From a virus: a DNA stretch of 22,024 nucleotides. The position numbers and the translations under genes were made by a program. The DNA is taken from positions 1-22,024 of IMG/VR virus record IMGVR_UViG_3300032242_001090; one strand, given 5' to 3'. Every line of letters starts with the position of its first letter. The stretch's first letter is position 1. Under the pieces are notes generated by a model. That model saw nothing but the letters and a program-made list of their open reading frames with translations. It did not search any database and was not told the origin of the DNA. Positions 19,952 to 22,024 of this stretch are shown here, piece by piece.

Positions 19952-20175
19952 CTGCAACCCCATCTCTTTCTTGCTGCTTTACCTCTTTCACCTGTCCAAC
20001 TTTTAGAACGGGCGCAAAATGACTTATGTCTTGGACCTGATTTTTGTGGCGCTTTTAGGTTTGATCCTGTTGCTTTGTTGTATTTGGATCGTCCTTTGGC
20101 TGTCAACCCTCCCCCTTTGGATACTGACTGTTTCTCTCCTCTGCCTACTGATAGGTTGGGTTTTTTGTCAGACAT
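19948..20175 (-). CDS. Conserved small basic phage protein (LTAKGRSKYN...NLKAP motif)
   Basis: I chose ATG 20175 (MSDKKPNLSVGRGEKQSV), which overlaps the endolysin stop by 8 nt; an in-frame TTG at 20199 is less likely. The 75-residue protein has GGLTAKGRSKYNKATGSNLK, then RHKSFCARSKSW and RGKAARKRW, a pattern I recognise from many phage genomes without a known function. It is very basic with conserved Cys/Trp positions near the end, suggesting nucleic-acid binding. It is the last but one gene of the lysis operon. Confidence 0.7.
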   Translation of the reverse strand: MSDKKPNLSVGRGEKQSVSKGGGLTAKGRSKYNKATGSNLKAPQKSGPRHKSFCARSKSWTGERGKAARKRWGCR

Positions 20176-20599
20176 AGGCTCTGGTTCCTTGTTTGTCAAT
20201 GATTAAGGCTTGTCTACGGGGTTTGTCATCTGGGTGGGAAGGCACAGAAATGTGCGTCCATCTGTCAAACTCCCTGATGACTTGGTCATAAGGTAACTCA
20301 CTTGCAATGACCGCCTTCACTACTTCGTCAGGAGTAAGCCCAAGCACACGAATATCAGCAGCACAGCCGATACGGTGCTGACTAGTATCCTTAGAGCCAA
20401 CTGCGTCATTGACAGCTTTTGAACGAAAGGCTGAATTAACCATGATAGGAGAACCATTAAGGAGTTCTTTGATCTGCTCCAGAAAGACTGCCAGGCGCAT
20501 GAGATTTGCCTTTTCAAGTTCATTAGGCTCATTGTCCAACTCCCTATGATCTGTATGCGTAAGTTCTTCTAACGTAAAGTGTTTAGTTAGTATCGTCAT
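20168..20599 (-). CDS. Endolysin, peptidase M15-type
   Basis: This 143-residue protein has the zinc-peptidase M15 pattern: SAFRSKAVNDAVGS, SQHRIGCAADIRV (zinc ligands H75 and D82), then E110 and WTHIS (H116). It should cut peptide stems of peptidoglycan. No signal peptide or wall-binding domain is visible, so export depends on the holin encoded just upstream. Its ATG overlaps the holin gene by 17 nt. Confidence 0.85.
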   Translation of the reverse strand: MTILTKHFTLEELTHTDHRELDNEPNELEKANLMRLAVFLEQIKELLNGSPIMVNSAFRSKAVNDAVGSKDTSQHRIGCAADIRVLGLTPDEVVKAVIASELPYDQVIREFDRWTHISVPSHPDDKPRRQALIIDKQGTRAYV

Positions 20600-20810
20600 T
20601 CTTTTCTCCGATATGTATGCCAGTAATCAATCCAATAAATCCACCAACAATAGTTTGGAACGCTGGACCAATAATATCAAATACAACTTTATCGTCAACT
20701 GTTGGATCAAATATAGCTTGCATGAACATATAAATCATACAAAAGACTACTCCCATTAAAGAGAAGGTTGCCATGATGGTGATGCAACCTTTAAGTGTCC
20801 AGGCTTTCAT
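20583..20810 (-). CDS. Holin-like membrane protein
   Basis: This 75-residue protein has two hydrophobic segments, residues about 9-32 (CITIMATFSLMGVVFCMIYMF) and 44-66 (DIIGPAFQTIVGGFIGLITG), and a charged tail EKNDDTN. Size, topology and position between Rz and the endolysin fit a two-span holin that releases the lysin. AAGGGG lies 8 nt before the ATG, which overlaps the Rz stop (ATGA). The class is inferred from topology and context. Confidence 0.7.
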   Translation of the reverse strand: MKAWTLKGCITIMATFSLMGVVFCMIYMFMQAIFDPTVDDKVVFDIIGPAFQTIVGGFIGLITGIHIGEKNDDTN

Positions 20811-21247
20811 TGCTTACCCCTTACTTCGTTGTAGATGTCGATACAGGCGTTGAGTTGCCTGATGGCGTTATCCCCGTCTGCGGTGATGGCGATAAGAGTT
20901 TGACTAACCTCTGGGTCAAGTTCGGCTCTTGTTTCTGTATCTCCATTGGCAGAGGTGGAATCTTTGCAGCTTGAAACGGTGCGGGCGGTGAGGCGCAGCT
21001 GACCAGTAGCAATGTCAGACTGCAACTTAGTAACTTCAGCTTTTGCATTTTGTGTTGCCTTTCTCAATTCGTTGGCATGGGTGTCTGCCAGTTGCTGCAT
21101 TTGTTTCTCTTTATCACGTTCTAGTGCGTTGAGCCTAGCAACCTCTGCCTCTTGCTCGACATAAGCCTGGTGATGACCATAGAAGTAAGAACTGATCACT
21201 AAGCACAAAATTCCTACAATCACCCAGGGATTCATCAAGCCAAACAT
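20807..21247 (-). CDS. Rz-like inner-membrane spanin
   Basis: This 146-residue protein has an N-terminal membrane segment (residues 8-24, VIVGILCLVISSYFYG), then a long charged helical region (EQEAEVARLNALERDKEKQMQQLADTHANELRKATQNAKAEVTK), then LRLTARTVSSCKDS (cysteine about 94) and a C-terminal helical end. This is the i-spanin layout that joins the outer-membrane partner Rz1 and fuses the membranes at lysis. Its ATG shares bases with the TAA of the -1-frame extension of the gene upstream (TAATG). Rz1 is embedded in it in another frame. Confidence 0.75.
   Translation of the reverse strand: MFGLMNPWVIVGILCLVISSYFYGHHQAYVEQEAEVARLNALERDKEKQMQQLADTHANELRKATQNAKAEVTKLQSDIATGQLRLTARTVSSCKDSTSANGDTETRAELDPEVSQTLIAITADGDNAIRQLNACIDIYNEVRGKQ
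20821..21048 (-). CDS. Rz1-like outer-membrane lipoprotein spanin, embedded in Rz
   Basis: This 75-residue reading frame lies inside Rz but is real: it has a lipoprotein signal with lipobox L15-V16-S17-C18 (hydrophobic LLLVSC), then a Pro-rich mature part (SPPAPFQAAKIPPLP, PSPQTGITPSGN). AAAGG lies 8 nt before the ATG. Embedded Rz1 genes are known in other phages, and the pair makes a two-component spanin. It would be missed by an annotator that rejects overlapping frames. Confidence 0.75.
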   Translation of the reverse strand: MQKLKLLSCSLTLLLVSCASPPAPFQAAKIPPLPMEIQKQEPNLTQRLVKLLSPSPQTGITPSGNSTPVSTSTTK

Positions 21248-21411
21248 TATTTGCTTTCTATGTGATATTTTGACTTCTGATATTCTATGTGGACATAGTA
21301 CATGAGTGCAACAAATTCAAGCACCAAGATCAAGATGGCAGCGCTGATAACAATTCTGTACTGGTATCTTTCAAGGAGTGCTTTCCTTCTTCGGATAGCC
21401 TCCTGAGCAGC
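21247..21411 (-). CDS. Membrane extension read by -1 frameshift from the gene upstream
   Basis: In the -1 frame, reading after the A AAA AAG heptamer, 54 codons encode AAQEAIRRRKALLERYQYRI, then a transmembrane helix IVISAAILILVLEFVALMYYV, then a basic/His-rich tail ending ESK. The TAA stop overlaps the Rz ATG (TAATG). The frame has no plausible independent start near its 5' end, so it seems made only by frameshifting: 133 residues plus 54 gives a 187-residue fusion. See the finding. Confidence 0.6.
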   Translation of the reverse strand, partial: AAQEAIRRRKALLERYQYRIVISAAILILVLEFVALMYYVHIEYQKSKYHIESK

Positions 21412-21809
21412 TTTTTTGCCTCCCGCTCCGCAGCCTCTTGCTCCTTTCTGAGCCTCTCCCTCTCCACCTCAAATTCTTTCCACAGACCGCCTAGCCCTGG
21501 TGTCTGGTAAATCATAAATTCACGGAGTTCTTTTTCTTGTTCCTGGAGCTGTCTGACGCGCATAATGTTGTCAAACGCTTGTTTATTCAAACTGACCCCT
21601 TTAGGTGGGGGTTTCTTCTTCGCCTCTTCTGTAGCCTTTTCGAGGACTTCTTTAGCCTCTAAGAATGTACCAATGTGACCAGATACCTCACTGGTAATCT
21701 CGGTCACATCTTCTGCTACGGCTTTAGCTTCCTTGTAGAGGTCAACACACTTTCTGACCCCCGCAATGGCAGCCTGTGCCATAGCAAATGCTGATATGGG
21801 ATCAATCAA
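21330..21809 (-). CDS. Coiled-coil virion or lysis-associated protein, zero-frame product
   Basis: The start is TTG 21809 with GAGGG 3 nt upstream, because MIDPISAFAMAQAAIAG at the N-terminus resembles a family start I have seen in other phage genomes; the first ATG is ten codons in. The 159-residue protein has a helical N-terminal part (residues 1-60), a Pro/Lys linker (65-70) and a long charged coiled coil (86-145). The zero frame ends in LKDTSTELLSALPS. Codons 131-133 are GCA AAA AAG, the slippery site that would divert ribosomes to a membrane-anchored form. The TGA of the upstream fibre fragment overlaps the TTG. Function unknown. Confidence 0.65.
   Translation of the reverse strand: MIDPISAFAMAQAAIAGVRKCVDLYKEAKAVAEDVTEITSEVSGHIGTFLEAKEVLEKATEEAKKKPPPKGVSLNKQAFDNIMRVRQLQEQEKELREFMIYQTPGLGGLWKEFEVERERLRKEQEAAEREAKKLLRRLSEEGKHSLKDTSTELLSALPS
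21372..21429 (-). promoter_or_regulatory. Programmed -1 frameshift signal
   Basis: Read on the minus strand: GGAG (21429-21426), 8 nt, the slippery heptamer A AAA AAG (21417-21411) in the zero-frame phase GCA AAA AAG, a 5-nt spacer, then a stem-loop (21405-21372) of 11 base pairs with an A-A mismatch, bulged A and T, and loop GAAGAA. The arrangement copies the dnaX-type frameshift element: upstream Shine-Dalgarno, A AAA AAG and downstream hairpin. Confidence 0.65.
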
Positions 21810-22024
21810 AGACCCTCACCAGGCGTAAAATAACATTCAGATGTTGCTTCACCAATAAAAGCTACATACAAAGGTGTAGTAGGGCTGAATTGATAAGGCA
21901 CTGTAAACACTTTAATTGTTCCTGGTACTGACACCAAGGCGTATTGTGGAGACGCATTAGCTGGAGCCACTGCCGTCACACTAGCGTTTGAGCTGACATT
22001 AAAGTAAACAGGTTGCCCACCAGA
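21806..22024 (-). CDS. Partial beta-rich protein, C-terminal 72 residues
   Basis: The frame enters from the right edge and ends with TGA overlapping the TTG start of the coiled-coil gene. The visible 72 residues (SGGQPVYFNVSSNASVTAVA, VSVPGTIKVFTVPYQFSPTT, LYVAFIGEATSECYFTPGEG) are beta-rich, and their composition resembles the Thr/Val/Asn-rich structural proteins at 4333-5150 and 88-876. Probably a virion surface or fibre protein. The N-terminus is outside the window. Confidence 0.55.
   Translation of the reverse strand, partial: SGGQPVYFNVSSNASVTAVAPANASPQYALVSVPGTIKVFTVPYQFSPTTPLYVAFIGEATSECYFTPGEGL

Follow-up and report, generated by a model that had tools for sequence, protein, structure and literature searches.

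Programmed -1 frameshifting is a known mechanism, and in the reviewed phage examples that we found it is mostly used for tail assembly or for coat proteins (PMC5009743, PMC10885494). In the lambda tail assembly chaperone gpG/gpGT the two products share an N-terminus, and frameshifting is widespread in this phage gene family, with a direction and site that vary between phages (PMC5009743). In T7 10A/10B and the Ig-like coat extensions a fraction of the protein copies carries an extra C-terminal domain as the result of a slip, and in-frame versions exist (PMC5009743). The heptamer A_AAA_AAG, highly shift-prone in E. coli (PMC5009743), directs the frameshift of E. coli dnaX (tau/gamma) together with an upstream Shine-Dalgarno-like element and a downstream hairpin (PMC3711429, PMC5009743). 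A link to lysis has been made for MS2, where shifted ribosomes in the coat gene were proposed to bring translation to the lysis gene (cited in PMC5009743 and PMC10885494).

Here we describe a gene in a 22,024-nucleotide stretch of DNA from a freshwater phage (IMG/VR record IMGVR_UViG_3300032242_001090, hereafter the window) that shares the heptamer, the upstream element and the hairpin with dnaX. It is very probable, judging from sequence comparisons, that a -1 programmed frameshift operates in this gene. Our full reading, in which the frameshift makes a membrane form and its purpose is to limit the dose of that form in the lysis region, is given a probability of roughly 0.6. The features of the locus are as follows.

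21330-21809, minus strand: zero-frame ORF of 159 aa with a TTG start, PHROG 32327 family, a helical domain without a membrane helix
21417-21411, minus strand: slippery heptamer A_AAA_AAG at codons 131-133 (GCA AAA AAG), with six A
21247-21411, minus strand: -1 frame extension, 54 codons (21411-21250) followed by TAA (21249-21247)
21292-21354, minus strand: predicted transmembrane helix IVISAAILILVLEFVALMYYV, backed by the hydropathy of the same tails in relatives
21245-21249, minus strand: TAATG, in which the -1 frame stop overlaps the Rz ATG at 21247 and the last A of TAA is shared
21426-21429, minus strand: Shine-Dalgarno-like GGAG, recognized by sequence, 8 nt before the heptamer
21371-21406, minus strand: stem-loop, a possible stimulator, starting 4-7 nt past the heptamer

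The TTG start of the zero-frame ORF overlaps the stop of the upstream gene, and the heptamer lies within the ORF in the correct phase for a -1 slip, which would give a full product of 187 residues. The extension contains one membrane helix, and the basic residues N-terminal of it suggest a cytoplasmic N-terminus. An earlier note on this DNA had listed the 159 residues, the phase of the heptamer, the 54 codons, the single helix, the TAATG, the GGAG, the stem-loop and the 187 residues, and all of these sequence statements hold. Most ribosomes would stop in the zero frame and release a fragment that lacks the membrane helix. A fraction would slip at the two lysine codons, probably through a tandem slip of lysine tRNA on A_AAA_AAG, read 54 further codons and terminate where the next lysis gene starts, so that a helical-bundle protein would become a C-terminally anchored inner-membrane protein.

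A scan of IMG/VR yielded 25 related loci, and a few more were added later. The window and its nearest relatives form a clade (clade 1) in which A_AAA_AAG is in phase in 16/16 distinct sequences (the window and 15 relatives), each followed in the -1 frame by a tail of 54-57 codons that encodes a membrane helix. The zero-frame tails of the same sequences vary in length and sequence. Four more distant loci (L023-L026) carry the tail in frame and have no slip; the -1 tail of the window aligns to the in-frame tail of L024 with 16/30 identical residues (E=1e-8), and its zero-frame tail gave no alignment at all with the tail of L024. The comparison of homologous genes proposed in the earlier note came out in two ways: relatives in clade 1 keep the heptamer, and in-frame relatives carry the fused tail without a slip.

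To assess selection, the substitutions observed among eight diverse clade-1 members were redistributed randomly among bases of the same type. In the 27 codons past the slip, the -1 frame shows 320 amino-acid changes (473±9 expected) and the zero frame 469 (452±9 expected), and over the whole tail the figures are 555 (925±13) and 929 (896±13), respectively; the sequence pairs are non-independent, so these SDs overstate the precision, but the two frames are compared within the same data and differ strongly. In clade 1 the -1 frame past the slip is under selection while the zero frame drifts, the reverse of the pattern (54-codon frame degraded, zero frame conserved) that had been named as counting against a frameshift. 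A rival reading is that of a single-frame gene that has lost one A, through decay or through a mistake in sequencing or assembly; assembly error had been the main alternative of the earlier note, since one added A would join the frames. However, 16 distinct sequences of many metagenomes share the six-A run and a conserved -1 frame, and the run occurs again at another site in a second clade described below; these independent assemblies rule the error out, and we regard this reading as next to impossible.

The elements flanking the heptamer are less constant. GGAG at -8 is restricted to the window and its 95% relative L002, AGGAGG or GGGAGG lies at about -15 in L008, L009, L020 and L059, and in L010 a Shine-Dalgarno-like element was not found near the heptamer. 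The stem-loop of the window folds at -16.9 kcal/mol (z = -2.3 against synonymous recoding), and the corresponding z values of the downstream stem are -4.8 in L003, -3.7 in L006 and 0.0 in L008. A clear stem-loop is present in the window, L002, L003 and L006, a different one in L019, L020 and L010, and it is absent or weak in L008, L009 and L059. The stem of the L003/L006 subgroup shows one compensatory G-C/A-U pair and one G-U change, and folding of the alignment found no single stem-loop common to the whole of clade 1. The claim that every dnaX-type element is present thus stands for the window but does not extend to clade 1, where the stimulators are not uniformly kept. Because they vary inside the clade, slip efficiency could be low or variable there.

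The protein of the window matches PHROG 32327, a family of unknown function, with E=3.9e-7 over residues 1-129. HMO-2011 gp60 (E=2.8e-89 against the same family), proteins of the roseophages CRP and Limnohabitans phage DC31 are members as well, all encoded in a single frame and with a C-terminal membrane helix. With a family HMM run on all fetched loci, 149 were split between frames, all in two clades, and 158 were in one frame, counts that include repeat fetches of the same contigs. Neither slip site was found in cultured phages, and no relatives were found in bacterial genome contigs. A match to Mosig EXVC030M (E 0.7) was not taken as a relative. Searches of Pfam and PHROGs gave no match of the slip-gene protein to a known lysis family (holin, antiholin or spanin), no informative Pfam match and no match to a tail-chaperone family. 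An AlphaFold2 model of the in-frame L024 protein (mean pLDDT 77, pTM 0.50) consists of three helices followed by a single long one extending across the membrane segment. Fold matches in the PDB were not significant; some were syntaxin Habc helical bundles (E 0.6 and worse), treated as a generic helical-bundle likeness, and the viral fold matches were uncharacterised proteins.

Analysis of the wider family revealed a distant clade of more than 70 distinct sequences (clade 2; L065-L089 and most of a set of 80 loci) with A_AAA_AAG at codons 18-20, following MIDPFTAFAMAQ-type N-termini. The remaining 143 codons, with the coiled coil and the membrane helix, lie in the -1 frame, and the zero frame stops 2-27 codons past the slip, so that the unshifted product is a peptide of 20-46 residues. 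ATA AAA AAG is invariant in 26/26 diverse members while neighbouring codons vary and ATA makes up 17% of the Ile codons in the clade; the heptamer is present in every clade-2 locus except L090 and its relative L310. In the -1 frame we counted 459 amino-acid changes (2209±24 expected), compared with 2870 (2177±25 expected) in the zero frame. The slip sites of the two clades are at non-homologous codons: by the layout of the L024 model, that of the window would fall in the long helix, immediately ahead of the membrane, and that of clade 2 in helix 1. Both clades are well separated on the family tree, the deep branches of which are weak, and the slip apparently arose independently in clade 2. Immediately upstream of the clade-2 gene is a small ORF of some 55-60 aa (ESPWPxTETKxVLxCRIPKKDE...; L078:2819-3004, L114:2784-2951, L091:468-629).

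Clade 2 also has a conserved RNA stem. RNAalifold placed a stem of eight pairs starting 6 nt past the heptamer, which was seen with a 75-nt folding window and in the alignment fold, its 3' arm lying outside a 60-nt window. Six of the eight pairs are invariant and hence uninformative, and single-sequence folding energies are unremarkable (z -1.7 to +0.4), so the case for the stem rests on covariation, namely one covarying pair and one G-C/G-U pair. The covarying pair connects two alanine codons, 54 nt apart, through their third positions, where the changes are synonymous; among 46 distinct sequences, 24 have UA and 22 have CG, so that 46/46 are paired and none is mixed. Mapped by parsimony onto a tree made from the remainder of the gene in 72 sequences, this pair changes state 10 times, with at least four of the switches forced by well-supported branches.

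These observations bear on two further explanations. RNA polymerase might add one A, so that part of the mRNA carries seven A and joins the frames. The gene does have a homopolymer run, and other bacteria make use of slippage at longer A runs (PMC3711429, PMC5009743). The run has only six A, however, both clades keep the exact phase of A_AAA_AAG with its final G and never a longer run, and the clade-2 stem lies at the spacing expected for a ribosomal stimulator, which leaves transcriptional slippage quite unlikely. Alternatively, the -1 frame could be a separate small gene with its own start, consistent with its ending where the next gene begins. No ATG, GTG or TTG was found before the membrane helix in the -1 frame of the window, however, and in five sampled clade-2 sequences the first start codon comes 52-80 codons past the slip and the codons preceding it are conserved. 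The lack of a start before the helix rules a separate gene out, and we consider it highly improbable.

The exceptions within clade 2 may point to a third arrangement.

L090:2990-3120, L309:1600-1710 and L310:4480-4610: subclade without the heptamer, in which an extra C shifts the MIDPF start

L090 and the independent contig L310 differ at 32 of 620 bases. In both the heptamer is gone (ATC AAA AAG G) and the gene is in frame at that point. Owing to an extra C at CCU_UUU_CGU (codons 4-6), however, the conserved MIDPF does not share the frame of the remaining gene. This could be accounted for by either a TTG start or a +1 slip at CCU_UUU_CGU, which with two contigs is a lead only; the slip would give MIDPFVAFALAQ, the usual N-terminus of the family. 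The +1 site of influenza PA-X is UCC_UUU_CGU (PMC3498833).

The frameshift gene of the window lies next to the following genes.

20807-21247, minus strand: Rz-like inner-membrane spanin of 146 aa (phrog_2466, E=3.6e-17; PF03245)
20821-21048, minus strand: Rz1-like outer-membrane spanin lipoprotein (phrog_3198, E=8.5e-4; lipobox LVSCA)
20583-20810, minus strand: ORF of 75 aa with two hydrophobic segments, holin-like by position, without a family match
20168-20599, minus strand: M15 peptidase endolysin (phrog_894, E=1.6e-32; PF08291)

The Rz1-like gene is wholly embedded in Rz in another frame. In several unrelated phage types, family members mostly adjoin genes for endolysins, spanins and holin-like proteins, but around some members (CRP-345) the neighbours are not clearly lysis genes. 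A role of the slip-gene protein in lysis is inferred from this neighbourhood alone, and synteny is no proof of it. At 20583-21247 the window carries Rz/Rz1 and the 75-aa hydrophobic ORF, whereas L002 (at L002:3563-4057), like L003 and L006, has a 164-aa IAPTLATALGGPLAG-type ORF (phrog_1544), a difference that looks like a swap of the lysis region. Minus-strand tail-region genes run towards both ends of the record (1-88 and 21806-22024), and at 22024 the ORF is open, which means that the record is either incomplete or cut from a circle at that point.

The start of the next gene lies at -1 to +3 nt relative to the -1 stop, whereas the zero-frame stop is 56-83 nt upstream of that start in clade 1 and 350-425 nt upstream in clade 2. 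Because the start adjoins the -1 stop and is far from the zero-frame stop, translation of the next gene may be coupled to the slip, in the window from the -1 stop to the Rz start through the TAATG. The slip could then act as a translational dimmer that sets a low dose of the membrane form, and a coupled downstream holin or spanin might be rationed too.

As to purpose, the earlier note had proposed working soluble and membrane forms at a fixed ratio, for example for lysis timing. In favour of this, the zero-frame product would retain the whole predicted three-helix domain of the L024 AlphaFold model and lose only the membrane end of the long helix. The zero frame is also open for at least 26 codons past the slip in all clade-1 members (21330-21410 in the window), with P = 0.01-0.05 for this openness in L008, L009, L010, L019 and L020 under synonymous recoding of the -1 frame. 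This weakly hints that zero-frame length matters in clade 1 and that the 159-aa soluble form might be functional there. The zero-frame tail, however, is unconserved in both clades, and the clade-2 unshifted peptide, in some cases ending two codons past the slip, holds no soluble domain. The -1 frameshift and its membrane-anchored product are thus strongly supported, but a soluble/membrane pair as their purpose is less so, and we consider it rather improbable. We prefer rationing of the membrane form because it is the outcome that both clades share, clade 2 making no soluble domain without the shift. For most other lineages of the family an in-frame gene suffices, so rationing is not generally required.

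If real, this case would place frameshifting in the lysis region of abundant freshwater phages, where the dose of a membrane protein matters, and would have it arise twice within a single protein family, at different sites; it suggests that such phages ration a lysis-associated protein by translational slip. Gene callers truncate or miss such proteins, splitting the clade-2 product into a short peptide ORF and an ORF without the first codons. The covarying stem of clade 2 is a directly testable frameshift signal. More speculatively, and to us somewhat doubtful, a lysis-region membrane family may repeatedly evolve self-rationing recoding (-1 at codons 131-133, -1 at 18-20 with a covarying stem, possibly +1 at codons 4-6 in L090 and L310), the efficiency of which would set lysis dose or timing and be passed to holin or spanin by translational coupling.

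In open-licence papers we found no report of a frameshift in the PHROG 32327 family, nor a description of the membrane-anchor outcome, the lysis neighbourhood or the repeated origin. The in-frame members (HMO-2011 gp60, CRP and DC31) share the family, the membrane helix and mostly the lysis neighbourhood with the window gene, and differ from it in having no slip. As in lambda gpG/gpGT, frameshifting here is widespread in a phage gene family, the two products share an N-terminus and the site varies, but gpG/gpGT is another protein family that serves tail assembly, whereas here the neighbourhood is that of lysis and the slip would make a membrane protein. T7 10A/10B and the Ig-like extensions concern capsid or tail structural proteins, while the extension in the window is a transmembrane helix. 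MS2 is an RNA phage and has no fused product, unlike the window gene. The likeness to dnaX is closest for the window itself and looser in clade 1, where the stimulators are not uniformly conserved; the -1 product of dnaX is the shorter one, whereas the slip in the window would lengthen the protein and add a membrane anchor.
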